Shown piece by piece: positions 27,836-46,706 of a DNA stretch of 64,000 nt. The notes under the pieces were generated by a model. It ran no database searches, was not told where the DNA came from, and saw only the letters and a list, made by a program, of their open reading frames with translations. The stretch's first letter is position 1. The number at the start of each line of letters is the position of its first letter. Origin of the DNA: Desulfococcaceae bacterium (GTDB lineage: Bacteria; Desulfobacterota; Desulfobacteria; Desulfobacterales; Desulfosalsimonadaceae); contig JAQYVU010000013.1 of NCBI GenBank assembly GCA_030145385.1, positions 1-64,000 of the forward strand, given 5' to 3'. The position numbers and the translations under genes were made by a program.

Positions 27836-27932
27836 ACTGCTTGATATTCCAATATGCTATTGGTATAAACCCATCAGTCTGAATTGCTCATGAAACATTA
27901 AGTTTTAAATTAAAAACCGGTTGGTATTTTCA

Positions 27933-28316
27933 ATGTCAAAAATCCTTATCATCGGCATCGGCGGATCCATCGGTGCCATTTTGCGTTACCTGATCAGTGG
28001 ATATGTCCAGCATTTAACGAAGAGTGTCGGGTTTCCGTATGGGACGCTTTTTGTAAATATTTTCGGGTGTTTTATTATCGGCATGTTGTTTCACCTGTCA
28101 GATACGCATGGTGTTTTTTCTTCCCAGTCCCGCTCTTTAATTTTCATCGGGATTCTCGGCAGTTTTACGACATTTTCCACCTTCGGCAATGAAACAATGA
28201 ATCTGTTTCACGAAAGTGAAAATTTTTTGGCTTCTGCAAATATAGTGGCCCATATTGTTTTGGGTCTCTGCGCCGTATGGCTGGGTCGGGTCAGCGGATA
28301 CTTAATTTGGAGGTGA
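27933..28316 (+). CDS. crcB: Fluoride exporter CrcB/Fluc
   Basis: A 127-aa four-helix membrane protein of the Fluc dual-topology fluoride channel family. Signature segments are all present: GIGGSIGAILRYLIS at the start, FPYGTLFVNIFGCFIIG in helix 2, and GILGSFTTFSTFGNET in helix 3 with the Phe-box and the sodium-site region. Only one subunit gene is seen, so it should form a homodimer. I find no fluoride-riboswitch consensus in the roughly 100 bases upstream. The ATG at 27933 is preferred over a TTG four codons earlier. The next gene's ribosome site lies across this stop codon. Confidence 0.93.
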   Translation: MSKILIIGIGGSIGAILRYLISGYVQHLTKSVGFPYGTLFVNIFGCFIIGMLFHLSDTHGVFSSQSRSLIFIGILGSFTTFSTFGNETMNLFHESENFLASANIVAHIVLGLCAVWLGRVSGYLIWR

Positions 28317-28322
28317 TAATTG

Positions 28323-28664
28323 ATGATTCCTGAGCAAGGATGTCTGCTGCGTATTTTTATCGGAGAAATGGATAAATGCAAAGGCAAGCCCCTTTATGAA
28401 TGGATCGTGGTCAAAGCCCGGGAGGAAGGACTGGCCGGGGCAACCGTGTTGCGGGGCATGATGGGGTTCGGCGCCAACAGCCGCGTGATTCATACGTTTA
28501 AGATCAGGCGGTTGTCAGAAGATCTGCCTATTGTTATTGAGATTGTTGATACCCGGGAAAAACTGGAGCGCTTTCTGGGGTTGATTGATGACAAGATTGA
28601 TGCCGGTCTGGTGACATTAGAGAAAGCCGAGGTCCGTTTTTACCGCAGTAAAAATTCTTCTTAA
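28323..28664 (+). CDS. DUF190 family protein
   Basis: A 113-aa cytoplasmic protein of the DUF190 family, which has a ferredoxin-like fold related to PII signalling proteins. Recognisable segments are LLRIFIGEMDKCKGKPLYEW, AGATVLRGMMGFGANSRVH-like (GFGANSRVIHTFKIRR) and DLPIVIEIVDTREKLE. Members are commonly encoded beside crcB, as here, and may modulate the channel. The GGAGGTGA ribosome site overlaps the crcB stop, so the two are translationally coupled. TTG at 28320 is a possible alternative start. Confidence 0.9.
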   Translation: MIPEQGCLLRIFIGEMDKCKGKPLYEWIVVKAREEGLAGATVLRGMMGFGANSRVIHTFKIRRLSEDLPIVIEIVDTREKLERFLGLIDDKIDAGLVTLEKAEVRFYRSKNSS

Positions 28665-29667: not shown

Positions 29668-32502
29668 TTACGGCAGGTTTGGATATTCATCAATTATTGG
29701 ATTGATATCTGCTTCCGATCCCATGCTCCATTCGAACCAGGAGCTGTCGAAATTGCTGATTTGCGGATAGCCCATCATATAAGCATAAAACCAGGCCAGG
29801 CTGGAACGCCAGGCTGTGCCGCAGTAAAAACAGAGGTGTTTGTCGGTGGTCATGCCCAGAGAATTCCAGTAAGGGTAGATCTCGGCCGGCGATTTGAGGG
29901 TGCCGTCGGCGTTCGTAAATTCATCCTTGCCCCAGACCGCGCCGGTAATCCGTCCGCTGGTGGGAATATAGCTGTAGGGGGTGGTGGCGCCGATATATTC
30001 ATCCCGGTTACGGATATCGACGATCAGGGCATCGGTCTCAGTCCCGTCGGAGACATCGCGCACATAGGGAATGTCCACCTTGTATTCAGGATGAATGGCT
30101 GTTATGCGGCCGGGTTCATCCGGATCAAAAAAGTCCACGGGCGTTCGGACAGCGGCAATGGTTTCTAACTCATATCCGGCGGCGCTCCATGCACTTTTGC
30201 CGCCGTCTAAGAAACGGACGTCTTCGACGCCGGCATACATAAGGGTCCAGAGGACCCTGGCGGCGGCGTCTAAGCTGCTGCCATAGACCACTACCGTGGT
30301 GTTCTTGTCGATCCCCATGTAGGCAATGGCCGGCAGCAGGTATTCATCCGGATAAATATTCCACCAGTTGCGCGGCAGCGTGTCATCCGGTCCCAGGCCC
30401 TTGGCGGCATCCTCTTCTTCGGTGGTGCTGCGGTCCCAGCAGGGAGGTTCGCCCGCGTCCACGGGCCAGTCATTGCGGGCATTAAAACAGTCGTATTCAA
30501 TTTCATCGGTGTTCACCCAGATGGCTTCGGGGAGATGCCCGTTGTTGTATGCGTCTCCGGCCGGTCCCCACCCGGTTTCAACGATCACATAGGGCGTGCC
30601 GTCATTATTGTTATCCATTATTTCTTTTAACCCGGCGGCACTGACTAGTTTGTCACTGTTTCCGGTTTCTTTGGGGTTGTCATAATAAGACCACTCATAC
30701 CATCCCCCGTCATAGTTGGCAGCCGGCCATCCCATGAGATAGGCATAAAAGGTGTACAGGCCGGATCGCCAGCCGGTGCCGCAGTAGAAATACATGGTTT
30801 TATCCGCTGAAAATCCCGAATCGGTCCAACTTTTCTCAATCTCCGTATACGATCTAAGCGACTGGTTATCGCCGCTCACCACTTCTACCCAGTCGCCGAT
30901 CCATTGAGCGGTTTTAATGCGCCCGAATTCATGGAAATAATGATAGTACGAGTTTGAAGAACCAACAAATTCCGCCCATTCACGATCATCCACGATGACG
31001 GCATCGGTGCTGGTGCCGTCGATCACATCATTTAAATCATCCGTGGTGGCAAGGTATTGAACATTGTCCGCTTTATCGCCAAAGCTTGCCGGGGCCAGGG
31101 TGTTCGGTGTAATTTCAATGTCTCCGCCATATGCCACCCATGCGTCGTAACTGCCGTTGAGGATACGGACGTCGTCGACACCAGCATGCAATAAGGCCCA
31201 GGCAACGCGCCCGGCAGTCATCATGGAAATGTCGTCATCCGCATAAACCACGACAGTCTTGTCCGCGGAAATGCCCATATTGCCGAAAAATTCCTGAAGT
31301 TCTGCAACGGGTTTGGCACTGCCTTCTTCGGGAAACGCATATCCATCGCCATACTCCGAATTTGGCCCGTTTTCGATACTGTATGTGTCCATAAAAATTG
31401 CCCCGGGAATGTGGCCTGTTTCATAAGGTGTCCCGGCATAATCTGTCCGATTTTCACTGTAGCGGGCTTCCCACGACGTGAAGAGGATAACATATCCGTT
31501 TCCCGGATAGGTCGGTGGGTTTTCCCCCTTGATCAGGGCGTCAACCCAAGCGGGGTGGACGAGCGCTTGGTAGTTTTCGAGTTTTTCCATGGGGCAGGTC
31601 GCGGCATCGGCCGCAGCCCAGTCCCAGATGGATGCATCATAATTTGCAGCATTTTCAAAACCCATCAAACGACAGATAAAATACGCATAGGCACTCCGGA
31701 TGCCGGCAGTGCAATAGGCTGCGACTTCCTTGTCTGCTGTGACCCCTTTGGATTCAAACAGGGTTTTCATGGCCGTATAGTCGAGGATGGTTTTGTCAGC
31801 CGAAAAATAGCTTTCATAGGGAAGATGTGCGGCACCAGGAATGTGGCCGCCTCTTTTTTCATTATAAAGCGTCCAGCCGATAAATTCCGGGTCGGTCCGG
31901 GTGTCAATCAGAGCAAAATCCGTGTCATTGCTCCGATCAACGACGTGTTCCTTGCCGGTGACCACACTATCATTGACAATTGCCGAAAATGTGACTGCTT
32001 TCCGGGTTCGGACGTTTGTTTCAGGCACGTTGCCGTCCGCGATCCATTTGTCCCATCCACCGTCAAGAATGCGAACATTTTCGCTGCCAAGGTATTCAAG
32101 CATCCAGAACAGCCGTCCTGCGGCTCCCCAGGATGCAGTTGTATCATCATAGATAATCATCCAGGTATCACGTTTGATGCCTCCGGCACCCAGAAGTGTT
32201 TCCAGTTCACTTACCGGTTTCAAATTTAATCCGGAATCGGAAAATTCCTGCCACGGCATACTTAATGCGCCCGGAATATGACCGGCATTATAAGCGTCCG
32301 CACTTCGTGCGTCCAATATCACTACACCGTCTTCGGACAGGTGTGATGCTTCAGCGATGAGGCTGCCATTGGGATATCCTTTTGTTGTTGGATTGACGGT
32401 GTGTTTGACACTGGAGCTTGAATCATTGCAACCGGAAATGGCAAATACCGCCATTCCGATGACACCTATTAACAGCACCCATGATTGAAATTTTTGAAGC
32501 AT
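29668..32502 (-). CDS. Lipoprotein with six rhodanese domains
   Basis: A 944-aa exported sulfurtransferase. The lipobox AISGC (Cys25) predicts an acylated lipoprotein on the periplasmic or outer-membrane face. Six rhodanese domains follow, roughly 45-155, 185-300, 310-465, 485-610, 618-780 and 805-935. The active-site loop keeps cysteine only in domains 2, 4 and 6: Cys264 (YCTAGIRS), Cys574 (YCGTGWRS) and Cys894 (YCGTAWRS). In domains 1, 3 and 5 the same position is Asp, Ala or Gly. This is three inactive/active pairs, each like a two-domain thiosulfate sulfurtransferase, repeating every 310-320 residues. Likely substrates are thiosulfate, polysulfide or other sulfane sulfur. The ATG follows AGGAGG. 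No sulfur-oxidation partner is adjacent. Confidence 0.93.
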   Translation of the reverse strand: MLQKFQSWVLLIGVIGMAVFAISGCNDSSSSVKHTVNPTTKGYPNGSLIAEASHLSEDGVVILDARSADAYNAGHIPGALSMPWQEFSDSGLNLKPVSELETLLGAGGIKRDTWMIIYDDTTASWGAAGRLFWMLEYLGSENVRILDGGWDKWIADGNVPETNVRTRKAVTFSAIVNDSVVTGKEHVVDRSNDTDFALIDTRTDPEFIGWTLYNEKRGGHIPGAAHLPYESYFSADKTILDYTAMKTLFESKGVTADKEVAAYCTAGIRSAYAYFICRLMGFENAANYDASIWDWAAADAATCPMEKLENYQALVHPAWVDALIKGENPPTYPGNGYVILFTSWEARYSENRTDYAGTPYETGHIPGAIFMDTYSIENGPNSEYGDGYAFPEEGSAKPVAELQEFFGNMGISADKTVVVYADDDISMMTAGRVAWALLHAGVDDVRILNGSYDAWVAYGGDIEITPNTLAPASFGDKADNVQYLATTDDLNDVIDGTSTDAVIVDDREWAEFVGSSNSYYHYFHEFGRIKTAQWIGDWVEVVSGDNQSLRSYTEIEKSWTDSGFSADKTMYFYCGTGWRSGLYTFYAYLMGWPAANYDGGWYEWSYYDNPKETGNSDKLVSAAGLKEIMDNNNDGTPYVIVETGWGPAGDAYNNGHLPEAIWVNTDEIEYDCFNARNDWPVDAGEPPCWDRSTTEEEDAAKGLGPDDTLPRNWWNIYPDEYLLPAIAYMGIDKNTTVVVYGSSLDAAARVLWTLMYAGVEDVRFLDGGKSAWSAAGYELETIAAVRTPVDFFDPDEPGRITAIHPEYKVDIPYVRDVSDGTETDALIVDIRNRDEYIGATTPYSYIPTSGRITGAVWGKDEFTNADGTLKSPAEIYPYWNSLGMTTDKHLCFYCGTAWRSSLAWFYAYMMGYPQISNFDSSWFEWSMGSEADINPIIDEYPNLP

Positions 32503-33262
32503 CTGTATAGCCTCCTGTATTTAAAGATTAAATTTTGATTTAAAATTTAAGCAATACTTCCATGAAGGTTTTAAAATGTCCAATTCAAAATATCTATTTT
32601 CTCATTTATTGAAATAGGTATTCTCTATAGTGAAAGGTGATCCTTCTGCGTCAGGGATCGTTATGCCAAAGTTTCTTTACAGGTTTTTACTAGTGATTGG
32701 TGTTGTTTTTTTCAAAAAGATTTTTTTAGCCTTGGGGTAAAGTTTAATTTGAAGTTTTTTTTGTTTAAAATCAATACTATACCTAAGAAAGTGGGAAAAG
32801 ATCAATAATTCGGCCAAATTCTTTGATTTTTTATTGCTCGGGCATTTCACGAACAAATGGTCTCAAAAAAAGGCTGTGAGGTATCAATTTCGCCTGGAAA
32901 ATTAAATTTAATCTGCCACTCAAAATCTTTTTTTTAAAAAATTTAATATTTTTTGGGGTAAATTTTGAAGAGGGATTCTATTCTGTGATAATTGCATCCG
33001 TTTATATGTATTAAAAAGCAAATAGTTAGAGTTGGATAACCGTGAGTCTGTTAATGGCACTAGTTTTTAGCTAGTGGAATACTCATAGTCTTTTCGAAAT
33101 GATAATTTTTTTAAATGTGTCATAGTAATACCGTCATAACAGTGTTTTGTTTTTAAACAGTCGTTTTTTGGCTGAATTATGTTTTTGGTATTGAGAATAA
33201 CCAACTGATTTAAATTAAATTTAAAGTATTTCTCATAACAATCTTACTGGAAGGTGATTCGG
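32503..33262. other. 750-bp AT-rich non-coding region
   Basis: Spacer between the divergent rhodanese and DUF2156 genes. It has no plausible coding frame on either strand. It is strongly AT-rich with many short A and T tracts, and a small hairpin CACTAG/CTAGTG near 33057-33075. Both promoters and regulatory sites must lie here, but I see no clear consensus. A degraded gene too diverged to recognise cannot be excluded. Confidence 0.5.
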
Positions 33263-34342
33263 ATGTTTATGTTTAACAGTTCTTCAGAAGCCTTGGATCA
33301 AATAAAAGTCATCCCGGATAATTGGGTACTGCCGTCCGGTGTCGGCAAAGTTGATGTTTCCGCTAAAGTTTCAGGGGAAACTGCATCATTCAGCTTTGAG
33401 GAACGGATGGAGTACATGCAGAAATACGGCAGTCACTGCATGTCATTTTCAACCCTGCAGCCGGGAATGAAATTTTTTGACGTGCCGGGCAAAGGGTTTA
33501 TCTCCTATATGCAGAAATGGGGGAGCCAGATGGTCTTGTCTGATCCGATATGCCATGAGAATGACCGTGAAGCGGTTATCGGAGAATTTCTTAGCAAATA
33601 CCCCAGCAGCGGTTTTATTCAGGTCACCGAGCCGGTGGCCCGTCTGATTCATGAGCGCTTTGGTTTTTACGCCACCCAATTCGGCATCGAAACGGTTATT
33701 GACCTTGGGAAATGGAGTCTTTCCGGCAAAAAAAAGCAGGTATTGCGCACATCTTTGAACCAGGCAAAGAAAAAGGGTGTTGTCATCCGTGAGAATCCCG
33801 AAGAGACAAGGCATCATGAGCTTTCAAAAAAATGGATGTCAACGAGAAAGATCAAAAACAGGGAGATCGGGTTTTTAATCCGTCCGATGGTGATGGATCA
33901 TGAGGAAAATACCCGGAAGTTTTTTGCATATCAGGGTGATGAACTTATCGGGTTTGTATTTTTTGATCCCATTTTCAAAGATGGCGAAATTATCAGTTAC
34001 GTGCCGAATATCTCAAGGTTCAGCCATTCCTTTCGCCAGGGCATTTTTTATTCCCTGCTCACTCACGCCATTGAAACATTTAAAGCCGAAGGTCTTAAAG
34101 AAGTGAATCTGGGGCTTTCCATTCTGGTTCTGGATGACGAGGACGAGGTCCATGAGTCCAGATTATTGAAAAATGCTGAACGCCTGATATTCAAGTATGG
34201 AAATTTTATATATAATTTTAAGGGGATTGCGTTCACCAAATCGCGGTTCAGGGGAAAAACCAATAAATTCTACTCAGCGCACAAGTGGAGTTTTCCGGCA
34301 GCCAAACTCATCACCATGTTTAAGTTGTCCAACGTTTTCTGA
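33263..34342 (+). CDS. DUF2156 (MprF C-terminal-like) acyltransferase-fold protein
   Basis: A 359-aa protein resembling the soluble C-terminal domain of phosphatidylglycerol lysyltransferase (DUF2156, a tandem GNAT fold). Typical segments are MSFSTLQPGMKFFDVPGKGF, GSQMVLSDPICHENDREAVI, VLRTSLNQAKKKGVVIREN and YQGDELIGFVFFDPIF. No membrane domain is attached, unlike full MprF. The ATG at 33263 is preferred because GGAAGG lies eight bases upstream. It is followed 78 bp later by the first reductase-like SDR, and a vestige of a second copy of this gene precedes the second SDR, which argues that the pair is functional. Aminoacyl- or acyl-transfer is family inference; the substrate is unknown. Confidence 0.78.
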   Translation: MFMFNSSSEALDQIKVIPDNWVLPSGVGKVDVSAKVSGETASFSFEERMEYMQKYGSHCMSFSTLQPGMKFFDVPGKGFISYMQKWGSQMVLSDPICHENDREAVIGEFLSKYPSSGFIQVTEPVARLIHERFGFYATQFGIETVIDLGKWSLSGKKKQVLRTSLNQAKKKGVVIRENPEETRHHELSKKWMSTRKIKNREIGFLIRPMVMDHEENTRKFFAYQGDELIGFVFFDPIFKDGEIISYVPNISRFSHSFRQGIFYSLLTHAIETFKAEGLKEVNLGLSILVLDDEDEVHESRLLKNAERLIFKYGNFIYNFKGIAFTKSRFRGKTNKFYSAHKWSFPAAKLITMFKLSNVF

Positions 34343-34420
34343 TAACGGATCACACCAAATCATTTTCTGAATATGAATTTTTACAAGGCATCTCAATTCT
34401 AAAGAAACATAGGGGGCTTC

Positions 34421-35731
34421 ATGATTTATTTCGTTACTGGCATTACAGGTACGGTTGTTCCGGTAATTGTTGAAAATTTAATGAAAAAAGAAAAAGACCC
34501 TGTTTTTTATTTTGCTATCAGAAAAGATTCAAAAGGAAACCATATCCGGGCAAGATTCGAATCGGTGGTCCTTGGGATGGATTTGGATAATTCCGCCAGA
34601 CAGAAACTTTTGCAAGAATCAAAGCTGGTTGAAATAGATGTTGAAAAAGAAAAGCTGGGCATTGATCCGGATCTTTATTCAGAGTTGATATTAAACATTG
34701 AAAAGATTCTCCATGGTGCAGCAGATGTCCGGTTTGATCAACTGTATGAAAAAATTAAAGTGCCGAATGTTGTTTTTACCAAAAAAATCTATGCATTGTT
34801 TAATGAAATAAAGCTGCATCGGGAGATATACGGAAAAAGCAAATTAACTTTATACTATATTTCAACCGGTTATGCCTACGGTATCTATAAGAAACCCATC
34901 CCTGAAGATTTCCCTGAATTCCACCCTGGAAAGCCGGACAACACATACGCCCAGACCAAGGCAGAGGCCAAGTTTTTCATTTTGGATAAAATCAAGCGGT
35001 TTAATGATCAGATTGTGATTTTTGAGCCGACCATTATCGGCGGATCAGCCCAAACCGGTAAAACCAAAACATACAACCTGCATTATATCGTTATGATGCT
35101 GGGATATATGGGAAAACTGCCATTTCTGACCTCGTCGGAAAACCGGCTTGATATTGTACCGGTGGACTGGGTCGCGGCGGTTATTTCAGATATCATGTCC
35201 AAAGATGAATACCATCAGGGTGTCATGAGGCTGGCAAGCGGGTCGGAAGGGATCTCCATCAAATACCTGCGCGATGTCGGTTATGATTTTTATACAAGCA
35301 ACGATCCGGTCCCGGGCCACCATATCCCCAAAATTCGATTTGTTCCCCGATATGTTTTTAATTTAATGGTCCAGCTTCAAAAATCTTTTTACCGGGCCAT
35401 GTATTTCTGCACCCGCAACAAGCGGTTCCGCAAAATGGTGAAAGGCATCAGCCTGCTTGAAGGCTATTTTCCTTACATTACGGGATATAAAGTGTTTGAG
35501 AATTCAAAGAGCCGGGAATTGATTGAGAAATATACGGATTGTTCAGCAGCACCGTCACTTCAGGATGTTTTCAATGAAAAAGGTGAACTGGTCAAAAAAG
35601 GATATTACAGAAAAATTCTGGTCGATACGCTGGAGACCGGCTGGGGCGGTCTGGTGGATTTTGAGCGGCTGGAAGAGAAAACAGCAACTTACAAGGCCCC
35701 GCAGGCTGCATACGGAACTTCAAGAAAGTAA
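34421..35731 (+). CDS. Fatty-acyl-reductase-like extended SDR, copy 1
   Basis: A 436-aa NAD(P)-dependent protein resembling the thioester-reductase/fatty-acyl-CoA reductase family. Matching segments in order: VTGITGTVVPVIVENL, AIRKDSKG, ILHGAADVRFDQ, YYISTGYAYG, NTYAQTKAEAK (the YxxxK catalytic pair), FEPTIIGGS and DIVPVDWVAAVI. In the nucleotide-binding loop the third glycine of GxxGxxG is Val (GITGTVV). No membrane helices are evident. It probably reduces an acyl thioester to aldehyde or alcohol, but substrate and product are unknown. It lies downstream of the DUF2156 gene, has a GGGGG ribosome site, and is followed by an intrinsic terminator. The gene at 36125 is a close paralogue. Confidence 0.8.
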   Translation: MIYFVTGITGTVVPVIVENLMKKEKDPVFYFAIRKDSKGNHIRARFESVVLGMDLDNSARQKLLQESKLVEIDVEKEKLGIDPDLYSELILNIEKILHGAADVRFDQLYEKIKVPNVVFTKKIYALFNEIKLHREIYGKSKLTLYYISTGYAYGIYKKPIPEDFPEFHPGKPDNTYAQTKAEAKFFILDKIKRFNDQIVIFEPTIIGGSAQTGKTKTYNLHYIVMMLGYMGKLPFLTSSENRLDIVPVDWVAAVISDIMSKDEYHQGVMRLASGSEGISIKYLRDVGYDFYTSNDPVPGHHIPKIRFVPRYVFNLMVQLQKSFYRAMYFCTRNKRFRKMVKGISLLEGYFPYITGYKVFENSKSRELIEKYTDCSAAPSLQDVFNEKGELVKKGYYRKILVDTLETGWGGLVDFERLEEKTATYKAPQAAYGTSRK

Positions 35732-35883
35732 GCGTATTATTTTAAATCGTTTTATAGACGAATATATTTTAATCGCCGGATGTTTCGCACGGCACTTTAT
35801 CAAGTAAAGAAATGTTTTCGGCTTGCTGATTAATGGTTAGTTTACTTAAAAAAGTTTCTTAAAATCCATTTAGGTTAAGGATT

Positions 35884-35920
35884 AAGCACTGCTTAGGGGG
35901 GATCTGAGCAGTGCTTTTTT
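35884..35920 (+). terminator. Intrinsic terminator after SDR copy 1
   Basis: AAGCACTGCT and AGCAGTGCTT form a perfect 10-bp stem around a 14-base loop, followed by a run of T. It separates the two SDR paralogues, so the second copy needs its own promoter. Confidence 0.9.
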
Positions 35921-35975
35921 ATCGGCTTGTATCTTGAAGATCGACCTGATATGACACTTTAACTTTATCAAACTG

Positions 35976-36112
35976 TTATATATATAATTTTAAAGGTATT
36001 GAATTTACCAAATCCCGGTTCAGGGGACAAGAAAACAAGTTTTAACGCACGCACACGGTATCTGCCGATTGTGAAGCTTTTGTCGGTGTTGAAATTATCC
36101 AATGTATTTTAA
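35976..36112 (+). pseudogene. Vestige of a second DUF2156 gene (C-terminus only)
   Basis: Reading plus, IYNFKGIEFTKSRFRGQENK matches the C-terminal IYNFKGIAFTKSRFRGKTNK of the intact gene at 33263. A one-base frameshift follows. The next frame gives PIVKLLSVLKLSNVF and a stop, matching AAKLITMFKLSNVF at the intact end. Nothing upstream of this segment remains; the terminator of SDR copy 1 lies there instead. The stop is 12 bp before the second SDR, the same arrangement as the intact pair. Confidence 0.85.
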
Positions 36113-36124
36113 AAGGGGTTGTGC

Positions 36125-37411
36125 ATGATTTATTTTATTACCGGTGTTACGGGAACGGTTGTTCCGGTCATTGTTGAGGATTTGATGCGAAAAGATGCGG
36201 ATCCTCATTTTTATTTTGCGATTCGAAAAGATACCAGGGGAATCGGTATTAAAAGCCGGTTTGAATCCGTGGTCACTTCTCTGGATTTGGATCAGGCGTC
36301 AAAGCAAAAACTGTCGGAAAGATCAAAACTGGTTGAAATCGATGTTGAAAAAGAAAAACTGGGCATTGATCCGGAAATTTATGCAGAACTGGTGAGCAAC
36401 ACGGAAAAAATACTGCACGGTGCAGCAGATGTCCGGTTTGATCAGCCCTATGATGAGATTAAAATTTCAAATGTCATTTTTTCACATAAAATATATGAGC
36501 TGTTTGATAAAATAAAGAATCATCGGAAAGAAAACAGCCAAACGGATGCGACTTTATATTATATTTCCACCGGCTATGCGTATGGCATCTATAATAAAGC
36601 GATACCGGAAGATTTTCCTGATTTTAAGCCGGGTAAGCCGGACAATACCTACGCACAGACAAAAGCCGAAGCAAAGATTTTTATTCTCGATAAAATCAAT
36701 CGCTTAAATGATCGGATTGTCCTTTTTGAGCCCACGATTATCGGCGGGTCCGCCCGGACCGGCCGAACCAAGACCTATAATCTTCATTATGTTGTTTTGA
36801 TGCTGGGGTACCTGGGGAAAATGCCTTTTTTTACCGCCGCCGACAATCAGCAGGATATTGTTCCGGTGGACTGGGTGGCGGATGTGATTTCAGATATTAT
36901 GGCAAAAGATGAATTCCACCAGGGCGTGCTGCGTTTGGCCAGCGGGCCGGATGCCCCAACCGTCGGGGATGTTCATGATGCAGGATATGAGTATTTTACC
37001 GCCAATGATCCGGTTCCGGGGCATTTGATTCCAGAGATTTCTTTTGTTCCCCGCTGGTTTTTTTATTTTATGATTAATGTGCAAAAAACGTTTAATCAGG
37101 CCATGTATAAAATTACCGGGAAAAAGAAATATCGCAAAATGGTGGTCGGCGTCCGGCTTTTGGAAGGATATTTCCCGTATATTACCCGATACAAAGTGTT
37201 CGAAAATTCAAAGAGTACGCAACTTCTTGAGAAATATACTGATTGCCCTAAGGCCCCGATTCTCCAGAACATCAAAGACAAAAACGGCAATCTGGTTAAA
37301 AAAGGCTATATTGATAAAATTTTGGCGGATACGCTGGAAACCGGCTGGGGCGGTATCGTGGATTTTACCCGGGTGGCCGCGCAGGTGGCGGCAAATAAGA
37401 GTTCGCGTTAA
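36125..37411 (+). CDS. Fatty-acyl-reductase-like extended SDR, copy 2
   Basis: A 428-aa close paralogue of the SDR at 34421, co-linear along its whole length with long identical blocks (for example LVEIDVEKEKLGIDP, HGAADVRFDQ, NTYAQTKAEAK, KTYNLHY). The YxxxK pair is intact and the nucleotide loop is again GVTGTVV, lacking the third glycine, so this is a family trait rather than a mutation. Differences cluster in the middle loop (about residues 125-145) and the C-terminal third. The ATG at 36125 is preferred over TTG at 36119 because AAAAGGGG precedes it. The vestigial DUF2156 gene lies directly upstream. Retention of an open frame suggests the copy is functional. Confidence 0.8.
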   Translation: MIYFITGVTGTVVPVIVEDLMRKDADPHFYFAIRKDTRGIGIKSRFESVVTSLDLDQASKQKLSERSKLVEIDVEKEKLGIDPEIYAELVSNTEKILHGAADVRFDQPYDEIKISNVIFSHKIYELFDKIKNHRKENSQTDATLYYISTGYAYGIYNKAIPEDFPDFKPGKPDNTYAQTKAEAKIFILDKINRLNDRIVLFEPTIIGGSARTGRTKTYNLHYVVLMLGYLGKMPFFTAADNQQDIVPVDWVADVISDIMAKDEFHQGVLRLASGPDAPTVGDVHDAGYEYFTANDPVPGHLIPEISFVPRWFFYFMINVQKTFNQAMYKITGKKKYRKMVVGVRLLEGYFPYITRYKVFENSKSTQLLEKYTDCPKAPILQNIKDKNGNLVKKGYIDKILADTLETGWGGIVDFTRVAAQVAANKSSR

Positions 37412-38727: not shown

Positions 38728-39831
38728 CTATTCAAATAACTTAACATATTCTCCATACCCTTTTTTTTCAAGGTCCGCTTTCGGGATGAATCGTAAAGAA
38801 GCCGAATTAATGCAGTACCTTAATCCAGTGGGAATTGGCCCGTCATCAAATACGTGCCCCAGGTGCGAATCTGCTTTTTTGCTCCGCACTTCCGTCCGTT
38901 TCATAAACAGCGCATTATCCGATTTTTCGATCAAAGCCTGTTGTGCAATCGGCTGTGTAAAGCTCGGCCAACCGGTCCCGGAACGAAATTTGTCAGTGGA
39001 TGAAAAAAGAGGCTCTCCAGACACAATATCTACATAAATACCCTCTTTTTTGTTGTCCCAATACTCATTGTTAAACGGGGGTTCTGTTTTGTCTTTTTGA
39101 GTGACCGCGTACTGAAGCGGAGTCAGGCGTTCTTTGATTACGGAATCTGCCGGTTTTGAATAGTCTTTTTCTCTTTCAGAACTGACGTTTTTTGCTTCAC
39201 TTCCCCAGATCTTTTTCAGGTACTGGTCCCGTCCGGAACCATGCCGGTAGAATTTATAACGGATGGGATTTTTTTGGGAATAGTCCTGGTGATATTCCTC
39301 AGCCGGGTAGAATTTATCATATTTAATGATTTCAGTTGCTATTAACTTGTCATATCGGTTGGTTGTCCCGATATGTGTTTTTGATTTTTCAGCAATCTGT
39401 TTCTGTTCGTCAGTATGATAGAAAATAGCGGACCGGTACTGCGGACCCCGATCGACAAAAGAACCGCCTCCATCCGTAGGGTCAATCTGTTGCCAGAATA
39501 TATCCAGCAGCTTTTCATAAGAAATTTTTCCCGGATCATAGGAGATTTGGATGGCTTCCAAATGACCTGATTTACCTGATGAAACCTGTTCATAGGTGGG
39601 ATTTTCCGTTTGTCCGCCCGTATACCCGGACACAACGTCAATCACTCCGTTAATTTTTTCATACGGCGCTTCCATGCACCAGAAACATCCGCCGGCAAAA
39701 GTGGCGGTTTCAGCATTGATCGGCTGCCGGGCGGTAATTTCGTCCGCAGTTGCGGAAATGTCTTTATTGTTACATCCAAATAGACTCATGATCATAATCC
39801 CTGAAATAAATAGTTTAATCGGTATGTTCAT
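38728..39831 (-). CDS. msrAB: Methionine sulfoxide reductase MsrA-MsrB fusion, lipoprotein
   Basis: A 367-aa fusion. A lipoprotein signal (MIMSLFGC, Cys20) implies export. MsrA (about 40-195) has the catalytic [11 protein letters not shown] motif and [12 protein letters not shown]. MsrB (about 225-360) has [31 protein letters not shown] and the catalytic Cys of RYCINSASL. MsrB lacks the zinc-binding cysteines and has Thr at the resolving-Cys position (SGTGWPSF), so it may use another reductant route. The N-terminal thioredoxin-like domain of PilB-type proteins is absent. It repairs oxidised methionine in periplasmic proteins. It diverges from the acyltransferase at 40143. Confidence 0.94.
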
Positions 39832-40142
39832 GGCGTTAATCCTCTTTCAGCAGTCATAATAAACAAAAGATAATACATTTCTAAAAGGGCGCAACTCTGG
39901 GCCGGTTTATGCGTCATCACGGAGTGATGACTGAGATGACCTGAAAATGGGTTTATGCTGACAGATGCCAAAAGAGTATAGTTCTTTCTTAAAATATGTT
40001 ACAAGCGACAGGGTGGATATTTTTTCCAGTTTATTTAAATCGTCAGTCTTTTTGTGTATATAACGGGAGCGTCAGGTCCGACCCGGCCAATTTGATATAT
40101 CCATTTGATATTTATTTTTTAATTTTGTTACACAAGGAAATA
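39832..40142. other. Divergent intergenic region with 8-bp perfect inverted repeat
   Basis: Spacer between msrAB and the acyltransferase. GTCATCAC-GGA-GTGATGAC (39913-39931) is a perfect inverted repeat and a possible regulator-binding site, sitting 82 bp before the msrAB start codon. No clear -35/-10 pair was identified. Confidence 0.4.
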
Positions 40143-41171
40143 ATGATGCAGGATCGTTGTGATATTAACGAATCATTCTTTTTTGACAGCTTGCCCGTTT
40201 CTGTTGAAGAGATTCAAGCTTACACACAAAGGTATTTTTCTCCAAAAGAGGTAAAGGGGCATTTTGTAAAAAGATTTTCAGTCTGGGTAATTATATCCTT
40301 TCTCAGACTGTTGCCTTATAGCGTTGCTTACCACTTTGGTACGTTCATCGGCAAAGCCCTCTGTTTTTTAAAAGTTGGAAGCAACGTTGCTTTAACGAAT
40401 CTTGACATCGTATATGGCGACACAAAGTCGGCATCAGAAAAACAGGCCATTTACAGAGCCTCTTTGATAAACTTTGGCCGTGTTATCATTAATTATATGC
40501 GGCTGCCGTTTGCAGGGGAAGAATTTTGGACAAAACATTGCGAACTGGTCAACGAAGAATCCCTTAAAAAAGCTGTAAACAAAAAAAAAGGGGTCATCTT
40601 TGTCGGAGGGCATATCGGCATGTGGGACCTTGCCGGTGGAAAGGTGGGGATGTCCGGTTACCCGACGGCAGTTGTTTCCAAAGGCATTGTTGATCCGGTA
40701 ATTGACAAGCTCGTTACTGAAGCCCGAACGGCAATGAATATGGGGGGAATTGAAACCAGAAAAACGATGGATCAGATTTTTTCAGGTTTAAAGCGTGGGG
40801 AATCCCTGGTTCTGGCCCTTGATCAGAACATGAAAAAAGGGAAGGGCGAGTTTATTGACTGGATGGGGAAAAAGGCTTCATCCGTCAAATCAACTGCTTA
40901 TATAGTAAGGGAGTCAGGGGCTGCCGTGATACCCGGTTTTATGATTCAGCTGGGGCCAAAAAAGTTTAAAGTGATTTTGGGTGATGAACTTTCATGGCTG
41001 GACTGTCCCGAAGACCCGGAAAAAGAGCTGATGATGAATAATCAGAATCAGGCTGATGCGGTTCAGAAAATTATCCTGGAGTATCCGGAACACTGGCTCT
41101 GGATCTATAAAAGATGGAAAGTCTGTCCTGACGGGGAGACAAATCCGTATAAGAAAAATAAAACGGTTTAA
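40143..41171 (+). CDS. LpxL/HtrB-like lipid A or lysophospholipid acyltransferase
   Basis: A 342-aa protein of the LpxL/HtrB superfamily. It has one N-terminal hydrophobic segment (FSVWVIISFLRLLPYSVAY), the NVALTNLDIVYGD segment typical of LpxL proteins, and the HxxxxD catalytic motif in GGHIGMWDLAG, then LALDQNMKKGKGEFIDWMGK. It should act on the inner face of the inner membrane, adding an acyl chain to lipid A or a related lipid. The ATG at 40143 follows AAGGAAA; an upstream in-frame start at 39996 is not supported. It converges with the yjbQ gene, with a possible shared hairpin between them. Confidence 0.85.
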   Translation: MMQDRCDINESFFFDSLPVSVEEIQAYTQRYFSPKEVKGHFVKRFSVWVIISFLRLLPYSVAYHFGTFIGKALCFLKVGSNVALTNLDIVYGDTKSASEKQAIYRASLINFGRVIINYMRLPFAGEEFWTKHCELVNEESLKKAVNKKKGVIFVGGHIGMWDLAGGKVGMSGYPTAVVSKGIVDPVIDKLVTEARTAMNMGGIETRKTMDQIFSGLKRGESLVLALDQNMKKGKGEFIDWMGKKASSVKSTAYIVRESGAAVIPGFMIQLGPKKFKVILGDELSWLDCPEDPEKELMMNNQNQADAVQKIILEYPEHWLWIYKRWKVCPDGETNPYKKNKTV

Positions 41172-41233: not shown

Positions 41234-41650
41234 CTATTCGCCGATGATTTTGACCAAAACCCGCTTCCGCCGGCGGCCGTCAAATTCGCCGTAAAAAATC
41301 TGTTCCCATGTGCCAAAGTCCAGGCGACCGCCCGTGACGGCCACCACCACTTCACGTCCCATGATTTGGCGTTTCATATGCGCATCCGCATTATCTTCGC
41401 CCACATTGTGCCGGTATTGGGAAATCGGTTCATGGGGGGCGAGTTTTTCCAGCCATTTCTCATAGTCATGGTGAAGACCCGATTCATCGTCATTGATAAA
41501 CACGGACGCGGTAATGTGCATGGCATTGACAAGGATCAGGCCTTCTTTGATGCCGCTTTCCATGAGGCACGCTTCCACATCCGGGGTGATATTGATAAAC
41601 GCGCGTCTTGTGGGGACTTGAAAAAAAAGTTCCTTGCGAAAATTTTTCAT
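41234..41650 (-). CDS. YjbQ/UPF0047 family protein
   Basis: A 138-aa cytoplasmic protein of the YjbQ family (UPF0047, described as having secondary thiamine-phosphate synthase activity). Characteristic segments are [40 protein letters not shown] and [20 protein letters not shown]. Conserved His residues in [15 protein letters not shown] and the C-terminal region could bind metal. The ATG at 41650 follows CAGGAG and is preferred over an upstream in-frame start. The true physiological role of the family is unsettled. Confidence 0.93.
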
Positions 41651-41729
41651 GTAAACTCCTGTGATAATGAAAGTTCGGGTTTGGATTAATGCATGAAGAT
41701 TAAAGACGATGAAAAATTTTGTTTGCTGG

Positions 41730-42431
41730 TTAAAAAGATGTAATTTTATAAGAAAGATTGAAAACGTACTGGATGCCTTCATATTGGATTTTGCCGTTTG
41801 GTTCTTTAAATTTAAGGCCGGATGTCACAGCCCTGATGCCTGCTCCGATCATGAAGTTGTCCATGATTTTAAATTCGATACCTGTACGGCCGTAAAGACC
41901 TGCCGACAGTTTGGATTCAACTTCCGATTCAACGGACTCATATTCGTTTTTTTCCGGATCAAATTCTTGCCTTCCATAAACGATCAAAGGCCCTGCTGCG
42001 GCATAGAGGCGCAGGCGCTTGGCAAAAGAAAATCCGATATAGCCGCCGGCAAAATAATCGATCAGCAACATCTGGTTTTCAAATTGAATTTTAATCTCTC
42101 CTCCGGGAGAACCGCTTGAGACTTCAACATGCCGGGTGTCATTTTTCATGCTGAACAGCAAGCCGACATCTAAGCCGTACTCCAGCCTGTTTTCATGATA
42201 GGGGCGCTGGGCGGCGGCGCCAAAGATAAAGTATTTATCATCATCTCCGTCAACATTGACGTCCTCCTCCTCAAGCGTCATACTCATCCCCATCACCTGA
42301 CAATGCAGAGGAACTTCCGGACCCAACGCATACCCGATGGAATTAAAATCCATAATCAAAAGAGAAAATAAAATAATGGCGATGCAATGAATCAGTTGAG
42401 TTGTATCGATTTTTTGGATTATATTCCTCAA
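41730..42431 (-). CDS. Predicted outer-membrane beta-barrel protein
   Basis: A 233-aa protein with an N-terminal export signal ([17 protein letters not shown], then a likely cleavage near ALG). Alternating hydrophobic/polar strands follow (for example [50 protein letters not shown]), ending in a terminal Phe after [11 protein letters not shown]. These are hallmarks of a small eight-stranded outer-membrane barrel. An acidic loop ([13 protein letters not shown]) could bind cations. The start appears to be TTG. I do not recognise a specific family. It lies 79 bp upstream of yjbQ. Confidence 0.65.
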
Positions 42432-42707: not shown

Positions 42708-45700
42708 ATGAATACTGAAACTTTAAACAACCGGCTCAAACAACTGGAAAATCTGCTGCCCGACGCCATGCATAAAAACCGGCATGCTGTGCTGCGCGAG
42801 ATTAACCGGATCCGGCAGAGAAAAAAAATATCACCGGATGATAAAAAAATATTATCCGAAATTAATAATTTGGAAAAAAAGCTGCGGTTGTCCATTGATC
42901 ATAAAAACCATCGACTGCGCCATCGGCCGAGAATTTCCTATGATGAAAATCTGCCGATTGTGGATCGAAGAAAAGACATCATCGAAGCGATTCAGAACAA
43001 TCAGGTGGTTATTGTGTCCGGAGAAACAGGTTCCGGAAAAACAACGCAGCTGCCTAAGTTTTGCATAGAGGCCGGCCGGGGGATCGATGGCCTGATCGGC
43101 TGTACCCAGCCGCGTCGGATTGCCGCTATGACGGTGGCCCAGCGGATTTCAGATGAACTGGGTGAGCCCATGGGACAATCAGTGGGGTACAAGATACGGT
43201 TTGCCGACCGGACCAGTCGGGAGAACGCTTATATTAAGATGATGACCGACGGCATTCTCCTGGCCGAGGCTCAGTCGGACAGGTACTTAAATGTTTATGA
43301 TACGCTGATTATCGATGAGGCCCACGAGAGAAGCCTGAACATTGATTTTATCCTCGGCATTTTAAGGAATCTGCTGCGGAAAAGAAAAGACTTAAAACTC
43401 ATCGTGACGTCCGCCACCATTGATACGGAAAAGTTTTCAAAAGCATTTGACAATGCGCCGGTTATCGAAGTTTCCGGCCGAATGTTTCCGGTGGAGGTAC
43501 GTTACTGGAAAGCACCGGCTGGTGATGATGATTCGGAAGTACAGACTATCGTGGATCGCGCGGTGGATGCTGTGGATAGCATTGCCGATCAATATCATGC
43601 CGGCGATATTCTGGTTTTCATGCCCACCGAGCATGATATCCGGGAAACCTGCGAGAACCTTGAAGGGCGGAAATATCGTCATACCATTATTTTGCCATTG
43701 TACGCCCGGCTTTCCGCCGCAGACCAGATGAAGGTGTTTGCGTCTTATCCGGGGCGCAAAATTATCGTTGCCACAAATATTGCGGAAACATCGATCACTG
43801 TTCCGGGGGTCCGGTATGTGGTGGATACGGGGGTGGCCAGGATATCCAGTTATGATCCAAGAACCCGGACCATGTCATTGCCCATATTGCCCGTGTCAAG
43901 AAGCAGTGCGGACCAGCGGATGGGCCGGTGCGGCCGGGTGCAAAACGGCATCTGCATCCGGCTGTTTTTAGAAGAGGATTATAATAACCGGTCTTTGTTT
44001 ACATCCCCGGAAATTTTGCGGGCCAACCTTGCCGAAGTCATTCTGCGCATGATTGCATTAAAACTGGGCAATATTCAATCCTTTCCGTTTGTGGATCCGC
44101 CGCCGTCACGGCAGATCAAGGACGGATTTGATCTGTTGCTGGAACTGGGGGCCATTGTTCCGAACGCCGGAAGGAAAAAGGATAACGCCCCGTTTCGGCT
44201 GACAAACCAGGGGCGGCTGATGGCCCGAATTCCCTTAGGGCCCCGGTTGTCCAGAATGCTGATTGAGGCATGGGAGAAGGGGTGCATCAAGGAAGTGGCG
44301 GTGATTGTATCCGCCCTGACAATTCCGGATCCCAGAGAAAAACCGAGAGACGCATTTACCAAAGCAGAGGCCGCCCATGCGCGTTTTAAAGACCCGGCCT
44401 CTGATTTTATTACCCTGTATAATATCTGGAATGACTGTTTCAAAAATTCGGAAGCAGGAAAGCCGTTTATTCGCGCCCGGGACCTGAAAAAGTTTTGTAA
44501 CACCAACTATATGTCGTTTAAACGGATGCGGGAATGGCAGGATGTTCATGAACAGATTATCGATATCCTGGAAGAATCCGGGTTCGATTTTGACAGGCAG
44601 CCCCCGGTTGCAAAAGCGGAAAATCCGGATGATGTTTTTTCTGCGCACTTTACCGCCATTCACAAATCCATCCTGAGCGGTTTTTTAAGCAATATTGCAG
44701 TTAAAAAGGAAAAAAATATTTACCAGGCCACCAAACAGCGTCAGGTCATGATCTTTCCTGGATCCGGACTGTTTAACAAGGCCGGTCAATGGATTGTTGC
44801 CGCTGAAATGGTTGAAACATCCCGTCTGTTTGCCCGCCGGGTGGCCATGATCAACAGTGAATGGCTTGAGGCGGTGGGCGGGTTTCAATGCCGATATACC
44901 TATACGAATCCCCGGTGGCAGCGGAATCGGGGGGCGGTGGTTGCCGATGAGCAGGTAAGCTTGTTCGGTCTTGTGATCGTGTCCGGCCGGCCGGTTCATT
45001 TTGGTCCGAAGAACCCGGAGGTTGCGTCGGAAATTTTTTTCCAAAGTGCCTTGATAGAAGGAGATGTTAAAAATGTTCTTCCGTTTATGTCCTCTAACTG
45101 GTCATTGATTGAAGATGTCCGGGATGTTGAAAATCGTTTCCGCCGGCGGGACCTGCTGGTCAGCGAGACAGAACTAATTGAGTTCTATCGGAAAAGGTTG
45201 TCCGGGGTCTATGACATCCCCACGCTGAAAAAATATATCAGGAAAAGAGGGTCTGACGATTTTTTGAAAATGAAACAATCCGATGTGCTTTCCGTTTCAC
45301 CGGACGATGAACAGTTGTCTTTATTTCCGGATACCGTTTCCGTGGGGCAGGACGCCTATGACTGCGCGTACCGGTTTGAACCCGGCCAGGAGCATGACGG
45401 GGTTACGGTGAAAATGCCGGTGTCCGCTGCCTCGGCGATTCCCATGGAATCCACCGACTGGGTGGTCCCGGGACTGCTTGAGGAGAAAATCACGGAACTG
45501 ATCAAGGGGTTGCCGAAATCCTATCGCAAGCAGCTGGTGCCGGTGGCTGCGACGGTTAAGGTGGTTATGGAAGAGATGCCGAAGTTCAATGGGGCACTGG
45601 TTAATTGTCTGAGCCGGTTTTTATATGATCGGTTAAAAGTGGATATACCGGCCAGCATCTGGAATGAAAAAGATCTGCCGGGCCACCTGAATATGCGGAT

Positions 45701-46706
45701 TACCCTGACCGATGCGGCCGGAAAGGAAATCTGCACCAGCCGGGATAAAGGCATCCTGATGCAGTCAATCCCCCAGACCTCACGCATGGAAGGGTTTGAA
45801 GACCAGCGCCGCAAGTGGGAAAAAACCGGATTGACCACATGGGATTTTGAGGATCTGCCGGAAATGATTAATATCACGGCTGAAAACGGCAATATGTTTC
45901 CCGTGTACCCGGGTTTGGAAAAAAACAACACGGGCGTTAACCTGCGATTGTTTCGGCACAAAGATGCGGCTGAAGCAGCTCACAAACAAGGCGTGGGGCA
46001 GTTGTATCGCCAGTATTTTTCCAAGGATATAAAATTCTTAAAAAAAAACCTGACCCTGCCGTTAATTGCTGAGGAAATGGCTCGGTATTTTGGCGGAAAA
46101 AAGCAGATTGAACAGCAGATGATAGACCGGGCCATTCAGGATCTGTTCGACAGAAATATTCGGACCCGGGCGGAGTTTTTTGATTATGCCCAACAGCACA
46201 TGAATCAGCTGGTTCCCGCCGGACAGAATTTGTTAAAGGCAATCCTGCCGGTCATGACGGTTTACAAAGAGGCCCGTTCCCTGTTTTATTCCATCGAGAC
46301 GTCCAGCGCAAACAATCCGGTTGTGATGGGATTTATCGATGAACTGCGCAAATCCCTTGCCGTTCTGGTGCCGGATAATTTTATTGAACTCTACACAATG
46401 GACCGGATGCCGGATCTGGGCCGATATATCAAGGCCATTATCTTAAGAGCGCAAAGAGGTCGTGCGGATATTGATAAAGACCGGAAGAAAGCGGCAAACA
46501 TCAAACCGCTTACCGATAGTCTAAACGAAATGATCGACAGCCTGGAGTCCACCACATCTTTCGAAAAAAGAGAGGCTGTAGAGACGTTTTACTGGATGAT
46601 CGAGGAGTTTAAAGTATCGCTGTTTGCACAGGAACTGAAAACACCGTATCCGGTTTCAATCAAGAAATTAAACAATCAGGTCAGCCGGATTCGCCGGATG
46701 ATTTAG
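42708..46706 (+). CDS. hrpA: ATP-dependent RNA helicase HrpA
   Basis: A 1332-aa DEAH-box helicase of the long HrpA type. Motif I (SGETGSGKTTQLPKF) is at about residue 104, motif II DEAH at about 203, motif III SAT at about 235, and motif VI QRMGRCGR at about 405. The HA2 and OB-like domains follow, then the DUF3418 C-terminal half that distinguishes HrpA from HrpB. The N-terminus is a charged helical segment. In E. coli HrpA acts in mRNA processing and in resolving stalled ribosomes. The gene is monocistronic; its end overlaps the convergent glycosyltransferase by 4 bp. Confidence 0.95.
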   Translation: MNTETLNNRLKQLENLLPDAMHKNRHAVLREINRIRQRKKISPDDKKILSEINNLEKKLRLSIDHKNHRLRHRPRISYDENLPIVDRRKDIIEAIQNNQVVIVSGETGSGKTTQLPKFCIEAGRGIDGLIGCTQPRRIAAMTVAQRISDELGEPMGQSVGYKIRFADRTSRENAYIKMMTDGILLAEAQSDRYLNVYDTLIIDEAHERSLNIDFILGILRNLLRKRKDLKLIVTSATIDTEKFSKAFDNAPVIEVSGRMFPVEVRYWKAPAGDDDSEVQTIVDRAVDAVDSIADQYHAGDILVFMPTEHDIRETCENLEGRKYRHTIILPLYARLSAADQMKVFASYPGRKIIVATNIAETSITVPGVRYVVDTGVARISSYDPRTRTMSLPILPVSRSSADQRMGRCGRVQNGICIRLFLEEDYNNRSLFTSPEILRANLAEVILRMIALKLGNIQSFPFVDPPPSRQIKDGFDLLLELGAIVPNAGRKKDNAPFRLTNQGRLMARIPLGPRLSRMLIEAWEKGCIKEVAVIVSALTIPDPREKPRDAFTKAEAAHARFKDPASDFITLYNIWNDCFKNSEAGKPFIRARDLKKFCNTNYMSFKRMREWQDVHEQIIDILEESGFDFDRQPPVAKAENPDDVFSAHFTAIHKSILSGFLSNIAVKKEKNIYQATKQRQVMIFPGSGLFNKAGQWIVAAEMVETSRLFARRVAMINSEWLEAVGGFQCRYTYTNPRWQRNRGAVVADEQVSLFGLVIVSGRPVHFGPKNPEVASEIFFQSALIEGDVKNVLPFMSSNWSLIEDVRDVENRFRRRDLLVSETELIEFYRKRLSGVYDIPTLKKYIRKRGSDDFLKMKQSDVLSVSPDDEQLSLFPDTVSVGQDAYDCAYRFEPGQEHDGVTVKMPVSAASAIPMESTDWVVPGLLEEKITELIKGLPKSYRKQLVPVAATVKVVMEEMPKFNGALVNCLSRFLYDRLKVDIPASIWNEKDLPGHLNMRITLTDAAGKEICTSRDKGILMQSIPQTSRMEGFEDQRRKWEKTGLTTWDFEDLPEMINITAENGNMFPVYPGLEKNNTGVNLRLFRHKDAAEAAHKQGVGQLYRQYFSKDIKFLKKNLTLPLIAEEMARYFGGKKQIEQQMIDRAIQDLFDRNIRTRAEFFDYAQQHMNQLVPAGQNLLKAILPVMTVYKEARSLFYSIETSSANNPVVMGFIDELRKSLAVLVPDNFIELYTMDRMPDLGRYIKAIILRAQRGRADIDKDRKKAANIKPLTDSLNEMIDSLESTTSFEKREAVETFYWMIEEFKVSLFAQELKTPYPVSIKKLNNQVSRIRRMI

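Follow-up and report, generated by a model that had tools for sequence, protein, structure and literature searches.

We analyzed a 64,000-nucleotide stretch of DNA from a Desulfococcaceae bacterium (contig JAQYVU010000013.1, positions 1 to 64,000 of the forward strand; hereafter the window). It contains a locus with a gene for a DUF2156 protein, genes for two short-chain dehydrogenase/reductase (SDR) proteins and the vestige of a second DUF2156 gene. The window's own genome is coded G000, its relatives G001 upward, and contigs have C numbers. An earlier note, made from the letters of this DNA, had given the order as DUF2156, SDR1, terminator, vestige and SDR2. The coordinates confirm this order, entirely on the + strand, with a terminator-like hairpin in the third place. 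DUF1 and DUF2 denote the DUF2156 genes of cassettes 1 and 2, and the features are:

33263-34342, + strand: DUF1, the intact DUF2156 / LPG_synthase_C protein of cassette 1 (359 aa; PF09924)
34421-35731, + strand: SDR1, the NAD_binding_4 protein (fatty-acyl/thioester reductase-type) of cassette 1 (436 aa; PF07993)
35884-35921, + strand: intrinsic-terminator-like hairpin and T-run 3′ of SDR1 (stem 35884-35916, 14 pairs)
35908-35990, + strand: kept leader of the deleted DUF2, by an ungapped match to the DUF2 leader of G008
35959-35988, + strand: candidate promoter-like site inside the kept DUF2 leader, of a site class not above chance
about 35979-36112, + strand: vestige, the 3′ tail of DUF2 by its matches to DUF2 tails, carrying a stop codon and a frameshift of 2 bases
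36125-37411, + strand: SDR2, the intact reductase of cassette 2 (428 aa; PF07993)

The DUF1 gene starts at ATG 33263, and there is an in-frame GTG at 33254. SDR2 starts at ATG 36125; the list of open reading frames begins it at TTG 36119 instead. The gap between DUF1 and SDR1 is 78 nt (34343-34420) and that between the vestige and SDR2 is 12 nt (36113-36124), so the equal spacing claimed earlier does not hold. The stem next to SDR1 is the longest among the 10 terminator-like sites found (shuffles average 5.0 sites), and G003 has a corresponding element between SDR1 and DUF2.

Identity of the vestige and the deletion in cassette 2

The vestige aligns to the window's DUF1 with a score of 73 (the best of 500 dinucleotide shuffles reaches 38), and it is recovered at E 2.3e-6 when the own genome is searched; both results bear out the significant similarity to a DUF2156 gene claimed in the earlier note. 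It contains one in-frame TAA and, compared with intact DUF2, a frameshift of 2 bases. The vestige matches the DUF2 genes of two relatives, G003 (38/43 residues in two frame pieces, 111/130 bases) and G008 (38/43 residues, likewise in two frame pieces, 110/133 bases); its match to the own DUF1 is poorer (27/37 residues, 95/132 bases). By these alignments, we assign the vestige to the tail of a separate DUF2 lineage and not to a remnant of a DUF1 copy. Of the origin first proposed, from the neighboring gene with one frameshift, the DUF2156 similarity and the frameshift stand. The neighbor as closest relative does not, and the TAA comes in addition.

Positions 35908-35990 match the DUF2 leader of G008 without gaps at 66/83 bases (score 49; best of 300 shuffles 19), and positions 35979-36117 match its DUF2 tail at 115/139 bases. 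Because the leader and tail matches share 12 bases in the window, the simplest history would be a single deletion inside DUF2, ~1.0 kb long and located at an imperfect, short repeat. The intact DUF2-SDR2 gap in G008 is 12 nt, equal to the vestige-SDR2 gap. In G003 it is ~178 nt, with extra sequence. G003 has the complete four-gene tandem DUF1-SDR1-DUF2-SDR2, and in G008 the DUF1-SDR1 and DUF2-SDR2 pairs sit on separate contigs. The extra sequence of G003 (locus L063, 8730-8907) includes a 17-base piece that is unique to that place among 195 loci.

The retained DUF2 leader may still drive SDR2. The position of the promoter-like site is common to the window and G008, and the G003 leader is alignable only up to 35951. 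A specific promoter claim for SDR2 was rejected, as promoter-like sites are not above chance (14 observed vs 14.6 in shuffles).

SDR1 and SDR2 are 67% identical (33% of residues differ), with a synonymous divergence (dS) of ~1.3. SDR2 is 89% identical to its G008 counterpart (dS 0.6) and 86% identical to that of G003 (dS 0.8). The ratio of nonsynonymous to synonymous divergence (dN/dS) is ~0.11 in both comparisons, 0.09-0.13 among SDR1 orthologues and 0.05-0.09 among DUF1 orthologues; these are simple pairwise counts at high dS and approximate, and five slices began off the start codon or one codon early. Both SDRs are open at full length, as first reported, and by these ratios appear to remain under purifying selection.

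In the DUF2156 tree, DUF2 joins genes of another genus, g7 (support 96/96). A single clade for all SDR-linked DUF2156 genes of the window's genus is disfavored (approximately unbiased test, p 0.016), and for the SDRs the matching single-clade test reaches p 0.055, with groups picked after inspection of the tree. The place of DUF2 in the tree, the divergence of the SDRs and the separate contigs in G008 all argue that pair 2 is an old duplicate or an acquisition from a relative, and not a recent local copy. The tandem duplication followed by transferase loss that was first envisaged thus survives in part. A second unit lost its transferase while both SDRs were kept, but it is not a simple copy of its neighbor, since it belongs to the DUF2 lineage.

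The SDR proteins as predicted acyl reductases

SDR1 and SDR2 match NAD_binding_4 (PF07993) at 124.4 and 125.4 bits (cut-off 20.1; ~E 1e-36), in a search that is unspecific, with matches in 14/14 control genomes. Above 100 bits, the 36 family genomes contain 17 SDR orthologues and only 2 other proteins. Tyr176 and Lys180 of the YxxxK motif are invariant across 16 aligned rows. The SDR profile has only two matches in the PDB, the MxaA reductase 4u7w (E 1.9e-12) and the fatty acyl-CoA reductase 7eoz (E 3.4e-7). The SDRs resemble fatty acyl-CoA reductases and thioester reductases with NAD_binding_4 domains in the whole-domain match, the invariant YxxxK and both PDB matches. They differ from them in being stand-alone proteins of 428-436 aa, in the loss of the third glycine of TGxxGxxG and in scoring below TIGR01746 and PRK07201. 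In G015 a phosphopantetheinyl-transferase gene follows the SDR gene, which fits a carrier-bound SDR substrate. The structure prediction for SDR1 (from 6 of the 16 aligned SDR rows) has a mean predicted local distance difference test (pLDDT) score of 42, too poor for a fold search.

The DUF2156 protein

DUF1 has the LPG_synthase_C domain (PF09924; 150.7 bits, cut-off 27.5), and its profile matches PDB 4v36 at E 2.1e-23. It scores 74.8 bits against NF033480 (cut-off 600), over model positions 550-814 only, and lacks the flippase part. In common with the C-terminal domain of MprF and the aminoacyl-phosphatidylglycerol synthases (4v36, 5vrv, 6lv0), to which it is alignable, it has the same Pfam domain over most of its length and conserves the Arg of the DLMR stretch (Arg252) and Lys326. 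Unlike MprF, the 359-aa DUF1 has no flippase part, has Asn249 in place of the DLMR Asp and adjoins acyl reductases. The Asp is present in two solved relatives, and the Asn is invariant in 19 aligned DUF2156 rows. We take the Asp and Arg of this stretch to be important residues of aminoacyl-phosphatidylglycerol synthases. The replacement of Asp by Asn therefore makes tRNA-dependent aminoacylation by DUF2156 doubtful. Acyl or alkyl transfer is our guess for its chemistry. The structure prediction for DUF1 (from 6 of the 19 aligned rows; mean pLDDT 53) is too poor for a fold search.

Four genomes (G012, G017, G018, and G022) have an SDR and a wax ester synthase/diacylglycerol acyltransferase (WS/DGAT) and no DUF2156 match, and a deletion in cassette 2 would therefore be tolerable. 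Judged by gene content, DUF2156 is a dispensable partner of the reductases.

Distribution and gene coupling

Within a family of Desulfobacterales-type metagenome-assembled genomes, 14/36 genomes encode SDR orthologues that are complete or nearly so, 17 in total. Upstream of them lies an intact DUF2156 gene in 12 cases, the vestige in one (SDR2 of the window) and no DUF2156 gene in 4 (those of the four genomes named above). The family has 19 full-length DUF2156 genes, which are followed by an SDR gene (12), by a gene for a relative of 3-hydroxy-3-methylglutaryl (HMG)-CoA reductase (HMGR-like; 6) or by neither (1, in G005, where only ~480 bases remain on the contig). The 12 DUF2156-SDR loci are spread over several genera, and the gene pair is conserved in related genomes, one of the expectations of the earlier note. 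The HMGR-like partner in G010 is visible for just its first 31 codons, at a contig end. The count of 19 omits broken pieces in G001 (C14, C448), weak matches (G052; G006 C123) and genes outside the family.

At E 1e-20, SDR orthologues occur in 2/395 sampled genomes of the phylum, the own genome and a weak match in G138. DUF2156 occurs at E 1e-30 in 22/389 genomes of the order, 15 in the family and 7 outside. Six of the latter are remote matches (E 1e-40 to 1e-72); the one in G730 is nearer (E 2e-135). G730, from another family of the order, has a methyltransferase-DUF2156 pair followed by three DUF6160 genes and no nearby acyl reductase (L106, 6703-8632).

Among 23 family genomes, 2 have both an SDR and an HMGR-like protein resembling the fatty acyl-CoA reductase FcrA (discussed below), 11 have the SDR only, 6 the FcrA-like protein only and 4 neither (one-sided Fisher test for avoidance, blind to shared ancestry, p 0.037). 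The FcrA-like count of 8 includes proteins cut by contig ends in G009 (222 residues) and G010 (31 residues) and excludes the HMGR-like genes of G006, G038 and G049, which are shorter. G002 and G005, both with an FcrA-like protein, retain SDR remnants of 27 and 46 residues, respectively. These remnants fit replacement, yet the own genome keeps both reductases, and mutual exclusion was rejected. PfaD was likewise rejected as an SDR partner: pfaD-type matches occur in 36/37 genomes (29 above cut-off), and the SDR-bearing G016, G017, G018, G021 and G022 have none above cut-off.

Two other parts of the window belong to gene families that recur near such loci. A CrcB-like gene (27921-28664, +) adjoins a DUF190 gene, and both families lie near the DUF2156/SDR remnant in G005 and G002. 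A fused MsrA-MsrB methionine sulfoxide reductase (38728-39831, -) has relatives near the DUF2156-SDR locus in several related genomes.

A parallel cassette with an FcrA-like reductase

A third DUF2156 lineage, with a member on contig C63 of the own genome, has the gene order methyltransferase, DUF2156, HMGR-like, PfaD and PfaA-like. In G004 this cassette is preceded by methionyl-tRNA synthetase and other housekeeping genes. FcrA is described as a relative of HMG-CoA reductase that reduces fatty acyl-CoA (PMC11948995). All 6 aligned HMGR-like rows have the FcrA hallmarks: the catalytic Glu, Lys, Asp and His are kept, and Asp stands in place of Ser684, Val in place of the pocket Lys and Trp in place of Leu862. 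The pocket Lys is printed as Lys795 in PMC11948995 and corresponds by alignment to human Lys735. The C63 protein (513 aa) has an N-terminal extension, and HMGR structures are alignable only from residue 139 on; PF25653, a possible counterpart of the Lad domain of PMC11948995, matches residues 18-132 of the G004 copy. HMG-CoA synthase (PF01154), the one other mevalonate enzyme searched for, was not found in the own genome (97% complete). It was found in 1/37 genomes, G005, which is 7% contaminated.

The C63 protein thus shares with FcrA, as described in PMC11948995, the extension, each hallmark residue and a genome without HMG-CoA synthase and with WS/DGAT. The neighbors differ: on C63 they are DUF2156, the methyltransferase and PfaD/PfaA-like genes, and the neighbors named in the passages on FcrA are WS/DGAT and fadD. 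The FcrA-like assignment of the C63 protein is drawn from residues and the extension.

PfaD on C63 scores 640 bits (cut-off 449) and the PfaA-like protein of G004 scores 1159 (cut-off 1010). Scores above cut-off for both are what the C63/G004 cassette has in common with the Pfa-type secondary lipid synthases (PMC3098273). The text seen of that paper contains neither HMG nor methyltransferase; here DUF2156 and the FcrA-like gene precede PfaD. The Pfa-type genes lie outside the window's own cassettes. The C63 methyltransferase has an 88% identical relative that adjoins SDR2 in G003, on the opposite strand. The DUF2156-SDR and DUF2156-FcrA-like loci therefore place one transferase family beside two unrelated acyl-thioester-reducing folds. 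The third-lineage DUF2156 of G001 (L054, L055; C14, C448) has stops and is split across two contig ends, and its FcrA-like neighbor is open.

Co-occurrence with a wax ester synthase

WS/DGAT (PF03007) is encoded in 20/23 family genomes searched, including 19/19 with an SDR or FcrA-like protein and 1/4 with neither (association p 0.002, which ignores shared ancestry). G013, G014 and G020 lack the SDR, the FcrA-like protein and WS/DGAT alike. Outside the family, 2/14 genomes of the order have WS/DGAT. The own WS/DGAT (G000:C34:22498-23328) scores 367 bits against TIGR02946 (cut-off 310) and has the HHxxxDG motif as HHCIGDG. It adjoins neither the SDR nor the FcrA-like gene, and lies among two genes of the polyhydroxybutyrate-accumulation-regulator type and two ArsA-type ATPase genes (L190, 5635-11148), an arrangement kept in G007 and G021. 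This neighborhood is likely a storage-granule locus.

Interpretation and alternatives

The sequence shows that two diverged DUF2156-reductase cassettes once stood in tandem at the locus. In the simplest history, a single internal deletion of ~1 kb took most of the DUF2156 gene of cassette 2 and left the terminator, leader and 3′ tail before SDR2. We propose a role for the reductases. SDR1 and SDR2 would reduce a fatty-acyl thioester (CoA or acyl carrier protein) to a fatty aldehyde or alcohol, and the product would mainly go to wax-ester storage via the genome's WS/DGAT. The unrelated FcrA-like enzyme, with the HMG-CoA-reductase fold, may have a like role in the DUF2156 - FcrA-like - PfaD - PfaA-like cassette. 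More tentatively, DUF2156 might be an acyl- or aminoacyl-transferase that supplies the adjoining reductase with substrate or accepts its product. Since DUF2156 appears dispensable, we propose that the loss of DUF2 left a working stand-alone reductase, SDR2, whose probable products are fatty alcohols for wax storage. Taken as a whole, the reading of two diverged cassettes with a deleted DUF2, whose SDRs are fatty-acyl-thioester reductases mainly for wax esters, has in our judgment about an even chance of being right.

Several observations weigh against this reading. The usual nucleotide-binding motif is TGxxGxxG, and its third glycine is Val13 in 16/16 SDR rows (the first two glycines are kept). 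The SDRs fall far below the thioester reductase model TIGR01746 (64.7 and 75.3 bits, cut-off 213) and likewise miss the PRK07201 cut-off by far. G004 and G030 have further strong NAD_binding_4 proteins (150 and 135 bits, respectively), and acyl reductases of other folds lay outside the search. G011 (60% complete) has WS/DGAT without either reductase, no SDR gene adjoins WS/DGAT in the loci examined, and the WS/DGAT association is drawn from one family. The PfaD/PfaA neighbors might be a sign that the product is a special lipid rather than storage wax. No acyl reductase lies beside DUF2156 in the five neighborhoods examined among the seven found outside the family, which counts against a general DUF2156-reductase pairing.

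Instead of storage wax, the cassettes may build a specialized lipid of the membrane or surface (alkyl ether, fatty-alcohol aminoacyl ester or N-acyl amino alcohol), a possibility to which we give clearly less weight. The reductase product would then receive an amino acid or an acyl group from DUF2156, and the methyltransferase would complete the lipid. Membership of DUF2156 in the aminoacyl-lipid synthase family, with its match to 4v36, is consistent with this, as are the methyltransferase and PfaD/PfaA-like genes beside the third lineage and the related methyltransferase beside SDR2 of G003. The invariant Asn in place of the DLMR Asp argues against it. So does the occurrence of SDRs without DUF2156, in four genomes and as SDR2 of the window, each in a genome with WS/DGAT.

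It is improbable that SDR2 is heading for loss, with expression of cassette 2 ended by the deletion and the gene recently silenced yet intact-looking. In favor of such a loss, the upstream gene is deleted, promoter-like sites are only as frequent as in shuffles and other genomes (G002, G005) contain SDR remnants. SDR2 is nevertheless full length, with the low dN/dS given above against G008 and G003, and the DUF2 leader with its promoter-like site is retained. The pairwise dN/dS mostly predates the deletion and is therefore not decisive. Least likely, the SDRs are extended short-chain dehydrogenases on other substrates (e.g., sugar nucleotides) and the DUF2156 neighborhood is no lipid pathway: the missing third glycine and weaker matches to Epimerase (E 4e-4, 0.03) and, for SDR1, to GDP_Man_Dehyd (E 2e-3) point that way, against the far stronger NAD_binding_4 matches, the two reductases matched in the PDB, a pair kept in 12 loci and several genera, and DUF2156 relatives also coupled to an FcrA-like reductase.

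Under the wax-ester reading, the locus would give uncultured anaerobic sulfate reducers a genetic route to fatty alcohols, and probably to wax esters, that can be put to the test. The gene contexts suggest that an MprF-type transferase fold may serve fatty-acyl reduction alongside two unrelated reductases. As a natural experiment, the half-deleted cassette suggests that the reductase can do without the transferase. DUF2156 could be an MprF-like enzyme moved from aminoacyl-tRNA/phospholipid chemistry to acyl or alkyl shuttling among carrier protein, reductase and acceptor. A rather doubtful extension sees this clade of DUF2156 proteins as partners dedicated to fatty-acyl-thioester reductases, switched between the SDR and FcrA/HMGR folds, possibly for an undescribed lipid class of sulfate reducers.

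The enzyme families are known, and their DUF2156-reductase arrangement seems undescribed in the literature searched, where we found no paper with DUF2156 and a thioester reductase together. Among the matches listed, in the excerpts they provided, neither the literature on DUF2156 and lipids nor broader searches contained the pairing. DUF2156 is not mentioned in the text we had of the FcrA paper (PMC11948995). The earlier view of the pairing as uncharacterized stands to that extent, with genomic context now pointing to fatty-alcohol/wax-ester metabolism.

Other genes in the window

Upstream of the locus, positions 29668-32502 (-) encode a protein of 944 aa whose single chain contains six rhodanese-domain stretches. 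Downstream of the locus are a relative of the LpxL-type lipid A acyltransferase (39996-41171, +; PF03279, 155.7 bits), a UPF0047 protein (41234-41782, -) and a DEAH-type helicase with DUF3418 (42708-46706, +).

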